Source of the DNA: Streptomyces sp. NBC_00237
GTDB lineage: Bacteria; Actinomycetota; Actinomycetes; Streptomycetales; Streptomycetaceae
Length of the DNA stretch: 64,000 nt
Direction: 5' to 3'
NCBI RefSeq assembly: GCF_026342435.1
Contig: NZ_JAPEMT010000001.1
Location: forward strand, 1,358,501-1,422,500
Below are positions 25,591 through 31,653 of the stretch, in pieces. A model generated the notes under the pieces. It was not told the origin of the DNA. It did no database searches and worked only from the letters and a program-made list of their open reading frames with translations. The translations under genes and the position numbers were made by a program. Position 1 is the first letter of the stretch, and each line of letters begins with the position of its first letter.

Positions 25591-25664
25591 TGCGCCGCCA
25601 GGGACTCGAACCCCGGACCCGCTGATTAAGAGTCAGCTGCTCTAACCAACTGAGCTAGCGGCGC
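25591..25664 (-). tRNA. tRNA-Lys(CUU), copy 3
   Basis: The 74 bases are identical to copies 1 and 2, with anticodon CTT. The first ten bases of the tRNA (25655-25664) also encode the last codons and the TAG stop of the upstream 188-aa reading frame on the same strand. Transcription of that gene would therefore run straight into the tRNA. Confidence 0.97.
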
Positions 25665-26221
25665 CTGCTGACGTCGTAGACATTAGCACCCTGATCGGCG
25701 GGAGGAAAAATCGATAACCGCGAGGCCCGCACGCAGGCCCAGAACAGCACCTCGGGACCCGGCAGCCAGGGGTGGCGCACGTCGGGCGCGACCACCCACC
25801 TCGGCCCCTTGTCCGTCGTCCCCGCAGGTCGCAGCGCCGGTACGGTCACCGCGTCGCCCGCCCCGTGGCACAGCAGCGGCGGCACGGCATCCGCCCGCCG
25901 CTCCCACTCGAGGAGCGCGGGCAGCCGCTGGGCGGTCCCCGGGGCGGTGAAGAGCAGCATCCGCCCGCGCTGCCCCGCCACGGGCCCGGAACCCGGCCCC
26001 TCCGCCCACAGCGCGTCCAGCATCCGCCGCCCGAAGACCGAGTCCACGTTCACCACGTCGAAGACGCTCCCGCACGGCAGCACGGCCGGGGCGTAGGGCC
26101 GCATCTCCCAGGCGGAGAGGGTGCTGCGCGGGTACGCGGAGGCGGAGACGAGCCACGCGGCACCGGCGGAGGTGGCGCGGTCGAGCGGCGGGGAGGTGGG
26201 GGCGGGGGCGTGAGTGGTCAT
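25655..26221 (-). CDS. Conserved small Streptomyces protein ending inside tRNA-Lys
   Basis: This is a 188-aa protein. It contains WLVSASAYPRSTLSAWEMRP, VLPCGSVFDVVNV and VAPDVRHPWLPGPEVLFWACV, and ends GANVYDVSRRR. I recall similar short proteins annotated as bifunctional DNA primase/polymerase-like in Streptomyces. I see no acidic catalytic pair of archaeo-eukaryotic primases, so that name should not be read as an activity. The TAG stop lies in the 5' part of the tRNA-Lys gene (25655-25657). ATG 26221 is chosen; longer in-frame forms run through the next gene in antisense. Confidence 0.7.
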   Translation of the reverse strand: MTTHAPAPTSPPLDRATSAGAAWLVSASAYPRSTLSAWEMRPYAPAVLPCGSVFDVVNVDSVFGRRMLDALWAEGPGSGPVAGQRGRMLLFTAPGTAQRLPALLEWERRADAVPPLLCHGAGDAVTVPALRPAGTTDKGPRWVVAPDVRHPWLPGPEVLFWACVRASRLSIFPPADQGANVYDVSRRR

Positions 26222-26358: not shown

Positions 26359-26700
26359 CTACGTCGCAGGCCCGTCCCGCAGGAGTCCCCGCCCGAACTC
26401 CACCATCTTCTCGGCGTAGTCCTCGGTCCACCCCGCCCGCTCGGCGATGTCCCCCACCACCAGCCGGTCGAACCGCTTCGGGTCCGCGAGCTGGGCCGCG
26501 GCCACCGCCTGGAACTCCACCGCCCGGTCCGTCGCCGCCCGGAACGCGTGGGTCAGCTCGGTTGCCCGCGCAAGCAGCTCCTTCGGGTCCTCGATCGACT
26601 CCAGGTCGAAGAAGTGGTCGGGGTCGGCGGCCGACTCCGCAGGCTCGAAGAGCAGCGGCGCGGGGCGCAGCCGCCGCTCGGTCCGCTCGGTTTCCGCCAT
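26359..26700 (-). CDS. Small conserved protein, unknown
   Basis: This is a 113-aa acidic, mostly helical protein. It contains RLRPAPLLFEPAESAADPDHFF and LVVGDIAERAGWTEDYAEKMVEFGRGLL. No membrane segment or known motif is visible, and I do not recognise a function. The ATG has a strong GGAGGAAG ribosome site. It is preceded by a repeat-rich region and followed by 137 bp before the next gene on the same strand. Confidence 0.7.
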   Translation of the reverse strand: MAETERTERRLRPAPLLFEPAESAADPDHFFDLESIEDPKELLARATELTHAFRAATDRAVEFQAVAAAQLADPKRFDRLVVGDIAERAGWTEDYAEKMVEFGRGLLRDGPAT

Positions 26701-26766
26701 GTGCTTCCTCCCAATCGGGCCGCCCCGGGGTCGGACGGCCACCCTCCATTGTCCGGGTACGCGCAA

Positions 26767-26863
26767 GTACGCCTCACGGTGCCCGTACGTACGCCTCAGC
26801 CCACCTGCGGTACGCCTCCAGAGCTGGCACGTACGCCTCAGCCCGCCCGCCGGTACGCCTCAC
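26767..26863. repeat. Five GTACGCCTCA boxes at 21-22 bp spacing
   Basis: GTACGCCTCA or GTACGCCTCC starts at 26767, 26789, 26810, 26832 and 26854. The spacing of two helical turns puts all boxes on one DNA face. They lie upstream of the 113-aa gene and downstream of the helicase gene. A multi-site operator and a decayed tandem repeat are both possible. Confidence 0.85.
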
Positions 26864-26933
26864 GGCACCCACGGCACCTGGTGTTCGCCGAGGTGTGCCA
26901 GTACCGAGTGGTTCGCCTCCCACCCGTCCGGGC
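26861..26933. repeat. Exact 73-bp duplicate of the helicase gene's 3' end
   Basis: These 73 bases are identical to 26987-27059, which encode the last 23 codons and the stop of the helicase. The copies are direct repeats offset by 126 bp. The duplicate lies outside any gene and is a fossil of a local duplication. Confidence 0.93.
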
Positions 26934-26986
26934 TGTGTTCATTGGCCGTCTCCGGCGGCGTGCCGGACTCCGTCCGGCGGTCACCG

Positions 26987-28369
26987 TCACGGCACCCACG
27001 GCACCTGGTGTTCGCCGAGGTGTGCCAGTACCGAGTGGTTCGCCTCCCACCCGTCCGGGAACTTCACCGTCACCCCCAGCTGCACCGGTTCCGTCGAGGG
27101 ATGCTCGTCCAGCAGGTCCGTCACGCCCTCCCGGCACACCACGATGCACGCGTGCCGGTGCCGGGAGGCGAGGACGCACAGGCGGCCCGTCTCCAGGTGG
27201 AACGCCGTCGCGTCCGGCCGCCCCGACAGCGGGTGCAGCACCACCGTCACGTCGAACTCCCGCCCCTGGAGCCGGTTCGCGGTGTCCACGGCGACCCCCG
27301 TCACCCCGAGGGCGGCGAGCGCGGCCCGTACCGCCGCCGCCTGGTCGCGGTGGGCGGTGCCGACCGCGACGCGGTCCGCCGTCAGGGGCGTCGGCGTGTC
27401 GGAGCGTTCGCTGAGCGCGGCCCCGCCCCGGTCGAGGAGGCGTCGTACGACCTGCGCGACCGCCCCCACCGCCTCCGGATCGGTCCGGGGCGTGTGCCGG
27501 GCCGGGAGCTCCAGCAGGCCCCACCCCGTGTGCGCCGCCTCGTCGACCACCCGGTCCACCGCCGACCCGTCCGACGGCACCCCGAAGCGGAGCGTCCGCT
27601 CGCCCGGCCCCGTCCCGCTGCGGAAGGGCGTGAACGGGTAGAACGCGTCCGACACCAGCTGCGCCGCCGAAGCGGGCAGCCGCCACGACACCGGAAGCCG
27701 GTGCTGCGGAAGCTCCGGGTTGTGCGCGAGCAGCGTGGACACGGCACTCGCGGACGGGTCGTACGACAGCCCCGCCCACTGCTCCGCCCCCACGATGGAG
27801 AACGGATCGAGCTGCCCGGGATCACCCACGAACAGCGCCCGCTCGAAGAGGCTCGCCACGGCCAGCAGCGCGTCCGACCGCATCTGGTACGCCTCGTCGA
27901 CGATCGCGTGCCGCCACGGCTCGACGCCCTTGACGTGCGCCCACTTCGCCGCGGTCGAGATCACGACGTCGAGCCCCGCCAGATCCGCCGCCTTCGCGGA
28001 CTTCTTCACCTGGGCGAGGTCGTCCAGCGCCTTGTCGTACGGATCCGGGTCGGAGCTGTGCAACCGTCCCACCGGCAGCCCGGGACGCTTCTCGGCGAGC
28101 CGCAGCACGAGGTCGTCGACCTGGGCGTTGGTCTGCGCGACGACCATCAACGGCCGTCCCGCGTCGGCCAGTTCGAGGGCCGCGCGCACGACGAGCGTGG
28201 ACTTGCCCGCGCCGGGCGGCGAGTCCACGACCACACCCCGGTGGGTGCCGTGGAGGGTGTCGTGCAGGATCGCGGCGGTGGCACGCGCCGCCTCGGCACC
28301 GGGGTCGAAACCGGTGCGGTCGAAGTCGGGGGCCTGGTGGGAGCCGGGGGCCTGGTGGGACTGGTTCAC
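26987..28369 (-). CDS. Superfamily 1 (Upf1-like) helicase/ATPase
   Basis: This is a 460-aa ATP-dependent nucleic-acid motor with a nearly complete SF1B motif set: I SPPGAGKST (50-58), Ia MVVAQTNAQVDDL, II AIVDEAYQM (156-163), III LFVGDPGQLDP (179-189), IV RLPVSWRLP (224-232), V DTANRLQGREFDVTVVL, and VI LCVLASRHRHACIVV. The QGRE and GDPGQL signatures place it with Upf1/Dna2-type helicases, in a compact form with little accessory sequence. GTG 28369 follows GAGGAAG at a long distance. It is the last gene of a three-gene leftward series with an unknown protein and an Fe-S nuclease. Its 3' end is duplicated downstream. Confidence 0.88.
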   Translation of the reverse strand: MNQSHQAPGSHQAPDFDRTGFDPGAEAARATAAILHDTLHGTHRGVVVDSPPGAGKSTLVVRAALELADAGRPLMVVAQTNAQVDDLVLRLAEKRPGLPVGRLHSSDPDPYDKALDDLAQVKKSAKAADLAGLDVVISTAAKWAHVKGVEPWRHAIVDEAYQMRSDALLAVASLFERALFVGDPGQLDPFSIVGAEQWAGLSYDPSASAVSTLLAHNPELPQHRLPVSWRLPASAAQLVSDAFYPFTPFRSGTGPGERTLRFGVPSDGSAVDRVVDEAAHTGWGLLELPARHTPRTDPEAVGAVAQVVRRLLDRGGAALSERSDTPTPLTADRVAVGTAHRDQAAAVRAALAALGVTGVAVDTANRLQGREFDVTVVLHPLSGRPDATAFHLETGRLCVLASRHRHACIVVCREGVTDLLDEHPSTEPVQLGVTVKFPDGWEANHSVLAHLGEHQVPWVP

Positions 28370-28450
28370 GGGTTCACGACTCTTCCTCGGACGGTACGGA
28401 GCGGAGGCCGGGGCAGCGTGCGGGGTGCCGTGCGGTCACAGCGGGCCCGG

Positions 28451-30112
28451 TCACAACAGGTCCTCCGGCGTCACCGGATCGGGGCGCTCCGCAAGCGCGA
28501 GGCCGTCCGCAGCACCGCCCGCGACGCCGCCCGCTGCCCCGCCCGCGACGGCATCCGGCGGCCCCCCGTGTGTCCACGGGGTCTCCTCCGGGTCCGGGAG
28601 CTGCGCCCCGCCCCGCTGATCGTGCTCGAACAGGGTCCAGCAGATCCGGTCACCCACCTCGGGCACCGTCCCGGGCGCGGGCTCCTTGCTCCGCCCCATC
28701 CCGTTGACGACCCGCAGCACGAGCATCCCCTCGCCCACCCGCTCCACGAACTCCGCGCTCTGCGCCCTGCCCTCCAGCGACCGGTGCACCTTCACCTTCT
28801 CGCCCGCCCGCTCCCCGCCGCCGAGCTGCGGCAGGTCGGCGGTCGTGACGGTCACCAGAGGCCGCGGACTCGGCCGCTTCCCCTCGCTCCAGGTCATCTC
28901 CACCCCCACCACCTCACTCACGAAGGCTTCCCCCGCGAGCCGCCGCGCCGCCATCACCAGCGGATCGTCCAACGCCTCCTGGGCCTCCAGCCGCCCCTGC
29001 TCGGTCTCCCGGGAGGCCAGCTTCTGGGCCGCCCCCACCGCACTGTCCTGCCGGGGCTGCGGCGGCTCGCCCGCCCGCACCTTGTCCCGGTGCGAGGTGT
29101 ACGACCACCGGTCCCGCGTCCACCGCTCGGCCGCCCGCACCCCCTCCGGCAACCCCCGCGCCAGATCCAGCGCCTGCCACACCGCATCCCAGGTCGGCCG
29201 CATCTGCGAGGCCAGCAACTCCCGGATCCGCCGCTCGGCGGCGGTCAGCTCGCCGAGCCGTTCCTCCGCACTCCCACCGTCCTCGGCGGCGGCCAGCCGC
29301 TGCCGGGCCAGGTCGTAGGCGTCGATGGCCGGGGCCAGCAGCACGTTGTCGAACGCCGGGTCGGTGGCGGGCCCCGCAGGCGGACAGAACAACTGCCCCT
29401 GCGCATCGCGCCCGGTCTCCGCCCGCAAGGCGGCCTCGGCCCCGCTGCCGCCCCCCTCCACCGGATCGATCCAGGCGAGCAGCGCCCCGAGGTGCTGGTC
29501 CTCCAGGTTGCTCTGCCCGGTCGCCCAGTGCCGCCCGAGGAGATCGGTGGCGGACAGCAGCAGCGAAGCGCCCGGAACCCGGGCCCGCTCCCCGTAGTGC
29601 GTCAGCCAACGCCCCAGCAGCGGAATGTGCGGCGGAGCCGGATAGGGGGTGTCGGGATCCTGCTCGACCGTCCGCCGGAACCGCATCGACCGCCCCAGCA
29701 ACCGCACGTACGCGACGCCCGCCCTGTTCGGCACGATGATCTGCGGCGCGTCCCGGCACAGCTCGACCTCCACCTTGACCCGCTTCTTCGTCTCGGGGTC
29801 GGTCTCGTTCCGCTCGGCGGGCTCGACGTCGTCGGCGTACGCGTCCACGTACGGCAGCACGGCCTCCGCCAGCTCCGCCAGGAACGCGAACCGCAGCTCC
29901 CGGTCCCGGGGCTGCGGCACGGCCAGCAGCCGAGGCCGCTCCCGATCGGTCCCCACCAGCGCCCCGAGCGGCGCCCCCGCCTCCCCGGCGGTGGTCAACG
30001 GGACGACGACCAGGGGACGTTCGGAAAGATGCCGATGCCGAACGGTCGCAAGCGGCTGTGCCCGCCCACTGCGGGTGGCCTGCAACCGGGCAAGGGTATT
30101 GATGAGCGACAT
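28451..30112 (-). CDS. 553-aa protein of unknown function, partner of helicase and nuclease
   Basis: I do not recognise this protein. The N-terminal part is mixed alpha/beta (RPLVVVPLTTAG, FAFLAELAEAVLPYVDAYADD). The centre contains HWATGQSNLEDQHLGALLAWIDP and a helical Arg/Glu-rich region. The C-terminal third is beta-rich (VEMTWSEGKRPSPRPLVTV, GEKVKVHRSLEGRA), possibly a small barrel, and ends in an Ala/Gly-rich linker with PDPVTPEDLL. No membrane segments or nuclease motif are seen. ATG 30112 is chosen; longer frames enter a dispersed repeat at 30151-30271. It lies 81 bp upstream of the helicase gene. Confidence 0.75.
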   Translation of the reverse strand: MSLINTLARLQATRSGRAQPLATVRHRHLSERPLVVVPLTTAGEAGAPLGALVGTDRERPRLLAVPQPRDRELRFAFLAELAEAVLPYVDAYADDVEPAERNETDPETKKRVKVEVELCRDAPQIIVPNRAGVAYVRLLGRSMRFRRTVEQDPDTPYPAPPHIPLLGRWLTHYGERARVPGASLLLSATDLLGRHWATGQSNLEDQHLGALLAWIDPVEGGGSGAEAALRAETGRDAQGQLFCPPAGPATDPAFDNVLLAPAIDAYDLARQRLAAAEDGGSAEERLGELTAAERRIRELLASQMRPTWDAVWQALDLARGLPEGVRAAERWTRDRWSYTSHRDKVRAGEPPQPRQDSAVGAAQKLASRETEQGRLEAQEALDDPLVMAARRLAGEAFVSEVVGVEMTWSEGKRPSPRPLVTVTTADLPQLGGGERAGEKVKVHRSLEGRAQSAEFVERVGEGMLVLRVVNGMGRSKEPAPGTVPEVGDRICWTLFEHDQRGGAQLPDPEETPWTHGGPPDAVAGGAAGGVAGGAADGLALAERPDPVTPEDLL

Positions 30113-30150
30113 GGAGTGAAGGGCCTGGTTCCTGGAGGCTTTGAGGACCG

Positions 30151-30271
30151 CCCCGTCAGGGGCGCGGGGCTGTGACATGTGCGGCTCCGCCGCGCGGGCG
30201 CGAGCAACCACGACCCACCCGCACGTAACGGGACACGCCGCGCGGCGAGCGCTTTAGGTGAAGGGGTGGGG
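30151..30271 (-). repeat. Inverted copy of the 4.4-kb composite intergenic element
   Basis: The reverse complement reads CCCCACCCCTTCACCTAAAG, then GCTCGCCGCGCGGC, then GCGGCGGAGCCGCAC, then CCCCGCGCCCCTGA. This is the same order of blocks as at 4361-4530. It separates the nuclease gene from the unknown partner gene. The remainder of the 30113-30354 gap shows no gene. Confidence 0.85.
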
Positions 30272-30354
30272 TAGGGGACTCATCCCGCCGAAGGGCCGGG
30301 GGCCGGGGGCGGAGCCCCCGAGCAGTAACCCCAGCCCCACCGAACCCGCACGGA

Positions 30355-31524
30355 TCACCCCACCCCCCTCAGCGCCTCCGCCCGCAACGCCGCCGCCCTC
30401 CGCAACGCCGCGACCGTCGGGTCGGACGGATCCCCGGCCCGCCCCTCCGCCGCGTCCAGTACCGCCGCGACCGTCGTGAGCCCCCCCAACTCCCCCCGCA
30501 CACCCCGCCCCAACGCCTCCACAGCCCCCGCGTCCCTCGCCCGCCCCCGGCAGTGAAACGCCAGCTCACACGCGGAAAGACATTCGGGGGCATAGGCGGC
30601 CCCCACCGCCTCGACCGCCGCCACCAGCTCCTCCGCCCCGCGCGCCGGATCGAACGTCGTCCCGGGCGGAAGGGCGGCCGCCAGCTCCTCCACCCTCCGC
30701 ATCCGCCCCAACTGCCGCAGGGTGACCGACCGTTGCTTCCGCACGTCCACCATCGACCCGGTCGGCAGATTGGAGAAGTCCTTCGGACAGACCAACAGCA
30801 CCCGATGCTCCACCTCCGCCCCCGCCACCTTCTCCGCCACCCGCTCCAGCGCCAGCACGTACACCGCCGCCTGCCGGGCCGCCGCCCCCACCTTCGCCGG
30901 GTCCGCCGAACCGTCCAGCATCGGGAAGGACTTGATCTCCACCACCGTCCACCGCCCGTCCGGATGCACCACCACCGCATCCGGCTCCAAGTAGGCCGGA
31001 GTCCCCGCCACCTCCAACGCGAGCATCGGATGGTCGAGCAGCGTCCACGCCTTCTGGGCCGTCGCGTCCCGCAACGCCAGCGCCGTCCGGGCCGTCCGTC
31101 CCTCGGGACCCGCCGCCGACACGTCCGGGGTGCGCGCCTCCGCCGGGTCCGGGGCGCCCAGCAGCCGCAGCAGTTCCGTACCCCCGTCGGACTTCACCCG
31201 CGCCTCGAAGGCGTTCCCGCGCATGAAGGCGAACTGCGACTGCCCGTACGCGGCGGGGGACCCCAACGCCTGTGCGAGCACCGTCTTGTTCACCCCCGCC
31301 CCGTCCAGCAGCGCCCGCCGCTCGCACCCCGGGTTCGCGGCCAGCGCCGCCAGCGCGCGGGCGTCCATCGGATGCGGGGCGACCGCCGCGCCTCTCAGCT
31401 CGGCGAGCCTTTGACGCACCGGAACGGCATCCGTACCAGCGGCAGCACCGGAAGCCGGAACGGCCGTGTCACGACGTACGTGCGGAGGCGTGGGATCGGG
31501 TCCGCTGCCCAGGGTTGCGTTCAC
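30355..31524 (-). CDS. PD-(D/E)XK nuclease with Cas4/AddB-type Fe-S cysteines
   Basis: This 389-aa protein carries the complete RecB-family nuclease pattern: motif I GNAFEARV (Glu107), motif II EPDAVV (Asp182), motif III VVEIKSF (Glu196, Lys198) and motif IV QAAVY (Gln218-Tyr222). Cys67 (NPGCERR) lies before the nuclease core, and Cys315, Cys319 and Cys325 (ECLSACELAFHC) lie after it. One Cys in front and three behind is how Cas4, AddB and Dna2 hold an Fe-S cluster. It should cut DNA ends or flaps. GTG 31524 is chosen because longer frames run back through other genes in antisense. It is the first gene of the helicase series and divergent from the phosphatase. Confidence 0.87.
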   Translation of the reverse strand: MNATLGSGPDPTPPHVRRDTAVPASGAAAGTDAVPVRQRLAELRGAAVAPHPMDARALAALAANPGCERRALLDGAGVNKTVLAQALGSPAAYGQSQFAFMRGNAFEARVKSDGGTELLRLLGAPDPAEARTPDVSAAGPEGRTARTALALRDATAQKAWTLLDHPMLALEVAGTPAYLEPDAVVVHPDGRWTVVEIKSFPMLDGSADPAKVGAAARQAAVYVLALERVAEKVAGAEVEHRVLLVCPKDFSNLPTGSMVDVRKQRSVTLRQLGRMRRVEELAAALPPGTTFDPARGAEELVAAVEAVGAAYAPECLSACELAFHCRGRARDAGAVEALGRGVRGELGGLTTVAAVLDAAEGRAGDPSDPTVAALRRAAALRAEALRGVG

Positions 31525-31653
31525 CCTCGGAAGTCTCCCATCCGCCACTGACAACACCCCCGCATCCGGCTTCTCACCCCGTGAGCGATGATGGAACAGG
31601 CCGGTGCCATTCCGGCCCGTACGCCGCAAAGAAGGCAAAAGGGAGAGAACGTC

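Follow-up and report, generated by a model that had tools for sequence, protein, structure and literature searches.

According to the report on Bad from Geobacillus (PMC7430649), DNA2 had been thought to be restricted to eukaryotes and archaea; Bad itself is a one-chain DNA2-like helicase-nuclease with a central domain of unknown structure, and the same report calls it rare and sporadic and notes that Mycobacteria and Rhodococcus have a second class. Here we analyse a stretch of 64,000 nucleotides from Streptomyces sp. NBC_00237 (contig NZ_JAPEMT010000001.1, positions 1,358,501 to 1,422,500; hereafter the window), part of a 9.2-Mb genome labelled G000, in which the parts of such an enzyme appear to be carried by three genes. 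Three separate open reading frames (ORFs) on its minus strand, at the places where an earlier sequence-only reading had put them, encode a predicted iron-sulfur (Fe-S) PD-(D/E)XK nuclease of the RecB family (30355..31548, 397 amino acids), a middle protein of 553 amino acids (28451..30112) and a minimal motor core of the Upf1/Dna2-like type in helicase superfamily 1B (SF1B; 26987..28369, 460 amino acids). The split-Dna2-like module proposed in that reading is supported by a predicted barrel in the middle protein, by the adjacency of the genes and by intact motifs, and we infer, with the folds predicted, that nuclease, barrel-bearing middle protein and SF1B core probably assemble into a three-subunit DNA2-like helicase-nuclease. 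No description of the three-gene set was found in the open-licence PubMed Central literature.

The nuclease contains, as first read, the RecB-family motifs GNAFE (residues 103-107), EPDAVV (180-185), VEIK (195-198) and QAAVY (218-222) and the one-plus-three cysteine signature (Cys 67/315/319/325). This numbering follows the ORF as first delimited (P0001), from position 31524; because close relatives start at the codon equivalent to 31548 (GTG, VADGRLPRV...), the start was moved there, which is probably better. Conservation of the motifs was scored over 143 aligned rows, comprising window-type copies (class I) and accessory copies (class II). The class II label is one of convenience; the accessory copies as a whole form a clade in none of three trees. 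E107/D182/E196/K198 are kept in all 101 class I Streptomyces rows, window included, in 18 of 18 class I rows from other genera and, among accessory copies, in 16 of 24 rows. All four cysteines are read in 140 of the 143 rows, the other three having a gap (two) or an unknown residue (one), and this signature suggests that the nuclease would hold an Fe-S cluster. The fold model resembles Cas4, EXO5, AddAB, AdnA and Dna2; motif rows and model agree on a predicted RecB-family nuclease with catalytic residues and the cysteine signature of DNA2 and Bad. A profile search of solved structures with the nuclease alignment returned two designed repeat proteins, which we treat as composition matches, and an apparent nuclease-middle fusion in one locus (L131) is an N-run artefact, the join passing through masked bases.

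Structure prediction of the middle protein, a check recommended in the sequence-only reading, gave an N-terminal RNase H-like fold of the kind found in the exonuclease of family B polymerases, then long helices between residues 252 and 382 (252-275, 280-319, 327-346 and 358-382), and finally, C-terminal to all of these, an SF1B-type beta barrel (about 386-496) like those of Ighmbp2, Setx and Sen1. The stretch of Ighmbp2 matched by the model (29-139) is presumably the barrel of that protein. The resemblance to family B polymerases may come in part from the abundance of such structures, and a profile search of solved structures with the middle-protein alignment gave no match. Chance is no explanation for the module, since this protein by itself has 2989 homologues at E<=0.001 among 7994 scored candidates. 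In Dna2, as outlined in PMC4716839, the nuclease is followed by stalk and beta barrel and then by helicase domains 1A and 2A, and two long helices hold the barrel between nuclease and motor. The predicted SF1B-type barrel of the middle protein, with long helices before it that may correspond to the stalk, strengthens the split-Dna2 reading; by prediction, the barrel stands between nuclease and motor, on a chain of its own.

The same three genes might instead form a conserved operon without a joint complex, the middle protein having a separate, for example exonuclease-like, role. We consider this very unlikely: the helicase ORF opens with the motor core, and a barrel closes the middle protein; the C-terminal motif of the latter, TPWTHGGPP, is near-invariant; an acidic pair is absent from its predicted first strand (34-40, VVVPL); and the three genes share the same genomes, as detailed below.

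The helicase motifs noted earlier, GAGKST (53-58), DEAY (158-161), GDPGQLDP (182-189) and QGRE (368-371), are present, and the seven motif residues checked are intact in 140 of 141 rows; the remaining row (L065) has a broken frame. In nearly all class I rows the nuclease and helicase motifs are intact, rather than degraded in most relatives. The helicase matches the Pfam families AAA_11 and AAA_12, a UvrD model being absent from the 15 families listed for it at E<=1, and its best solved relative by sequence is Dna2 (E 2.5e-7); we thus find the SF1B Upf1-like motor of DNA2 and Bad. The barrel relatives Ighmbp2, Setx and Sen1 include RNA helicases, and the contacts made by Dna2 would, according to PMC4716839, accommodate RNA, so that one could imagine a helicase acting Upf1-style on RNA or R-loops, with the nuclease trimming RNA-primed flaps. 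This is hard to credit: Dna2 is the best match among solved structures, the nuclease resembles DNA nucleases, and accessory copies accompany genes of DNA-acting systems, SbcCD and Jet.

How does the split set compare, as a whole, with described enzymes? Eukaryotic DNA2 shares the nuclease, the beta barrel (predicted in the split set), the SF1B motor and the Fe-S cluster signature, and its stalk may have a counterpart in the long helices of the middle protein; it is, however, one chain with an N-terminal OB domain, and the domain outline of PMC4716839 describes no RNase H-like domain for it. Bad is bacterial, like the split set, and shares with it a four-cysteine Fe-S RecB-family nuclease, a superfamily 1 helicase (of 5'-3' polarity in Bad and probably so in the split set) and a central domain that, according to its report (PMC7430649), eukaryotic DNA2 does not have; compared by description only, it is one rare chain, whereas the split set is three genes conserved across Streptomyces. 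Nuclease and helicase are joined in one polypeptide in DNA2 and Bad and occupy separate frames in the loci that we examined. The motors of AddAB and AdnAB are UvrD-like, of superfamily 1A, and lie on the same chain as a nuclease. In contrast, the split set has an Upf1-like SF1B motor encoded by a separate gene, and no UvrD fusion; what it shares with these enzymes is the RecB-family nuclease fold, an Fe-S cluster being described in AddB (PMC4716839).

The distribution of the three genes was followed in 246 genomes sampled evenly over the class, 22 of them from Streptomyces, the helicase orthologue being defined as the best row with at least 282 bits. Orthologues of middle protein, nuclease and helicase are all present in the identical 38 genomes, among them 21 of the 22 Streptomyces (all except G234). 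The genes are adjacent in 35 of the 38, in the order nuclease-middle-helicase wherever linked; the exceptions are G095 and G196, where the helicase is 36-49 kb away, and G152, where a contig ends. The question raised by the sequence-only reading, whether the genes co-occur across actinomycetes or lie scattered and never adjacent, is thereby answered in favour of co-occurrence. Outside the class no split set was seen in the phylum sample, where 9 of 198 genomes matched, all within the class. Pseudofrankia, Parafrankia, Micromonospora, Actinoplanes, Actinomadura, Streptosporangium and Kitasatospora are among the listed protein matches. Over 49 selected loci, the pairwise distances of nuclease, middle protein and helicase show correlations of 0.93-0.96, which are 0.95-0.98 in 14 class I loci of other genera and 0.98-0.99 within each accessory group. 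Degraded remnants with stops, of the helicase in L087 (G107), L088 (G016) and L089 (G161) and of HP281, the fourth protein of accessory copies, in L203 (G087), occur in genomes without a middle-protein match, which suggests loss of the module.

One-chain counterparts of the TM0106 type were reached by fetching weak helicase matches in other genomes. The three that were tested (1140-1403 amino acids) all exceed the cut-off of the TM0106 family (TIGR03491), and in all three RNase_H_2 sits between the nuclease part and AAA_11/AAA_12; PDDEXK_1 is listed for one. From the nuclease part through an RNase H fold and a further region to the Upf1-like motor, their domains come in the order of the split set. 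The differences are that these proteins are single chains, that the split-set nuclease has no NCBIfam match at E<=1, TIGR03491 (curated cut-off 97.45 bits) included, that G000 has no TIGR03491 match, and that the middle protein does not match their central part by profile. Indeed, against a profile of 16 one-chain rows (without L218, for which a wrong frame had been picked, and L219, which has no helicase match), the helicase aligned in place with the motor at a probability of 99.5%, the nuclease collinearly at 6.5-14% and the middle protein at 1% or less, so that sequence homology of the latter with the central part was not found.

In the class sample, TIGR03491 exceeds its cut-off in 78 genomes, and the overlap with the split set is a single genome (G031); three further split-set genomes have matches under the cut-off. 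The contrast between 1 of 38 split-set and 77 of 208 other genomes (Fisher 2.6e-6) holds with Streptomyces left out (1 of 17, P 0.0055), and gives P 0.17 when counted by genus. In two families (f17 and f18) the split and one-chain kinds occur in different genera, with no common genome in the sample. Such a near-exclusive distribution is suggestive only, related genomes being non-independent.

The class I locus has a fixed position in Streptomyces, with conserved neighbours: a divergent PGM-family gene lies near 79 of 80 named loci. Nuclease and middle frames overlap by 10 nucleotides in 61 of the 80. Two of the 80 have no helicase; among the other 78, a 4-nucleotide overlap joins the middle and helicase frames in 39.

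In the enzyme that we propose, the helicase core would move 5' to 3' on single-stranded DNA, the middle protein would complete the motor with its barrel and long helices and hold it atop the nuclease, and the strand would thread the Fe-S-stapled nuclease tunnel and be cut; 5' flaps, or 5' strands at DNA ends, would thereby be removed. By analogy with Dna2 and Bad, such 5'-3' movement with cutting in a threaded tunnel is likely. Class I would then be a housekeeping enzyme of DNA maintenance, replacing the one-chain DNA2-like protein (TM0106 or Bad type) of other actinomycetes. AdnAB is reported to be essential in Streptomyces (PMC5124664), and the class I enzyme is therefore more likely, as we infer, to act on flaps or stalled forks than in bulk resection.

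The accessory copies differ in their setting. Among plasmid records, tblastn with the middle protein as query matched three, of which one, from Nonomuraea, is 11.85 Mb long. The two Streptomyces plasmids (L174 and L175) carry HP281-nuclease-middle-helicase followed directly by JetABCD; the Jet genes of L175, the one locus tested, are scored by PADLOC as Wadjet type I. Jet genes also lie directly 3' of the accessory helicase in L185, where JetD runs off the fetched stretch. HP281 is upstream of the nuclease in L063, L064, L071, L074, L080, L081 and L176 as well. It occurs in 12 of the 246 class genomes, namely 6 of the 17 split-set genomes outside Streptomyces, 4 Streptomyces with accessory copies, G000 (a remnant) and G087 (with a stop), and in 22 of 246 Streptomyces genomes: 20 at full length, the broken remnant in G000 and a weak match in G356. 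The remnant (G000:C3:1102472-1102853, L204) is possibly that of an accessory module lost from the genome of the window. HP281, in its L175 member, has no Pfam match above cut-off (UVR is sub-threshold) and none in NCBIfam or PADLOC; profile search of solved structures gave weak matches over its first 62 positions (best E 0.056). Overall, the accessory copies are apparently mobile.

SbcD lies beside 15 distinct accessory loci (L083, L086, L174, L175, L185-L187, L189, L190, L195, L196 and L198-L201; L188, a second terminal copy, was left out), accompanied in all of these except L196 by SbcC (14 loci), and the pair is divergent from HP281; that of L174 is broken. Eight accessory loci (L084, L085, L191-L194, L197 and L202) have no SbcCD in the fetched stretch, nor did the flanks fetched for class I (L043-L082, L094-L173 and the window) contain any SbcD or SbcC match. 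SbcD exceeded the curated cut-off (TIGR00619) in the three cases tested; SbcC was recognised in both cases tested, under the cut-off (185 and 177 versus 478.5 bits). These SMC partner proteins also score with the LmuB and mad3 models; Lamassu was rejected, as the partner pairs with an SbcD phosphoesterase above cut-off in all three tested. In archaeal HerA-NurA-Mre11-Rad50 operons, Mre11-Rad50 genes likewise stand beside those of a helicase and a nuclease, although HerA and NurA belong to families unrelated to those of the split set.

The two groups of accessory copies also differ in their nucleases. All 16 SbcCD-linked rows, one of them a terminal duplicate, keep the E/D/E/K residues, whereas all eight rows without SbcCD have lost catalytic residues (HDLR in six, EQER in two) and kept the cysteines and the helicase motifs. 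Because these eight form one clade in the three trees (support 1.0 for middle protein, 1.0 for helicase and 0.04 for nuclease), the loss goes back to one or a few events and not to eight separate ones, and the Fisher value for the association overstates it. Only the nuclease tree recovers the SbcCD group as a clade (0.92). Positions were taken on single-contig genomes, contig ends being treated as chromosome ends. SbcCD-linked modules lie 4.7 kb from the contig end in G333, 24 kb from both ends in G293 (both copies fetched) and in G367 (the second copy seen only as an HP281 match), 523 kb from the end in G348, and 10.7 kb from the end of plasmid NZ_CP108489, annotated as linear; three modules of the group without SbcCD are 1.2-2.9 Mb from a contig end. 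Wadjet and Lamassu are also described as enriched at Streptomyces chromosome extremities (PMC10482375), and therefore end location alone shows no telomere role.

This enrichment, the presence of several accessory copies near replicon ends, the three loci adjoining JetABCD and the patchiness of accessory copies (judged from full-length HP281) would fit a defence system against plasmids or phages, of which the conserved Streptomyces copy would be a domesticated member; in Geobacilli, too, a methyltransferase is reported next to Bad genes, and a role in restriction has been proposed (PMC7430649). We nevertheless find this explanation unlikely, since class I is fixed in the genus, JetA exceeds its cut-off in 8 of 246 Streptomyces genomes and stands beside the module once (L185), and the middle protein has no match in phage records, with none confirmed among 29 viral-contig pattern matches. 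PADLOC, moreover, gave the helicase weak matches over short motor stretches (MkoC 2.4e-9, MkoA 1.2e-8) and none for the nuclease or middle protein. The PLuB system (NF040671) was also set aside, the helicase scoring 55 bits over the motor only versus a 999-bit cut-off, and TM0106 fusions scoring alike (49-67); no paper was found under that name in open-licence PubMed Central. Wadjet type I genes were found neither in the window nor beside most modules, and the module is not assigned to that system. For the window copy, at its fixed position and with no tblastn match to Jet or SbcCD genes in the window (nor any DUF3375 match in G000), the anti-phage role considered in the sequence-only reading is not indicated; a defence-like setting was observed for accessory copies alone.

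Accessory copies keep HP281 as a fourth protein; if the three subunits form a DNA2-like enzyme, the Mre11-Rad50 (SbcD-SbcC) pair of one group would open DNA ends for it. A tentative and rather doubtful extension is a bacterial counterpart of MRN-DNA2 in actinomycetes with linear chromosomes: Mre11-Rad50 would hand ends to a three-chain DNA2 and its loader HP281, and selfish or protective copies, located terminally on linear chromosomes and at the ends of plasmids, would act on the ends of replicons that enter the cell or of plasmids linearised by Wadjet, one sub-lineage having become nuclease-dead and motor-only. Independently of this extension, the three-gene set of Streptomyces and the second set that some relatives carry beside Mre11-Rad50 genes make it likely that these bacteria handle broken or free DNA ends in a manner closer to DNA2 than had been recognised. 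The three-gene version would be genetically tractable, as nuclease, barrel and motor could be removed singly; it would account for the roughly three thousand homologues that appear in each search, most of them under the label hypothetical; and the SbcCD-linked copies would allow a direct test of a coupling between Mre11-Rad50 and a DNA2-type resector in bacteria.

Some further features of the locus deserve mention. A GC-rich interspersed repeat of 239 bp (30116..30354), with at least 43 matching rows in G000, itself included, parts the nuclease and middle genes in the window, where the frames of most close relatives overlap. Downstream of the helicase, a small conserved protein without Pfam match is encoded on the minus strand (26359-26712; 117 amino acids from an inner start), and its gene is near 72 of the 80 named loci. 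It is followed on the same strand by the gene of a 187-amino-acid protein with a Prim-Pol N-terminal domain (25658-26218), which adjoins a tRNA-Lys gene. Finally, the last 27 helicase codons and the stop recur downstream of the gene on the minus strand (26860..26943, spacing 127), with 85% protein identity to the gene's own end. Similar copies were seen in 6 of the 80 named Streptomyces loci; in addition, G123 has two, G133 three at a distance of 169 bp from each other, and G208 one or two.
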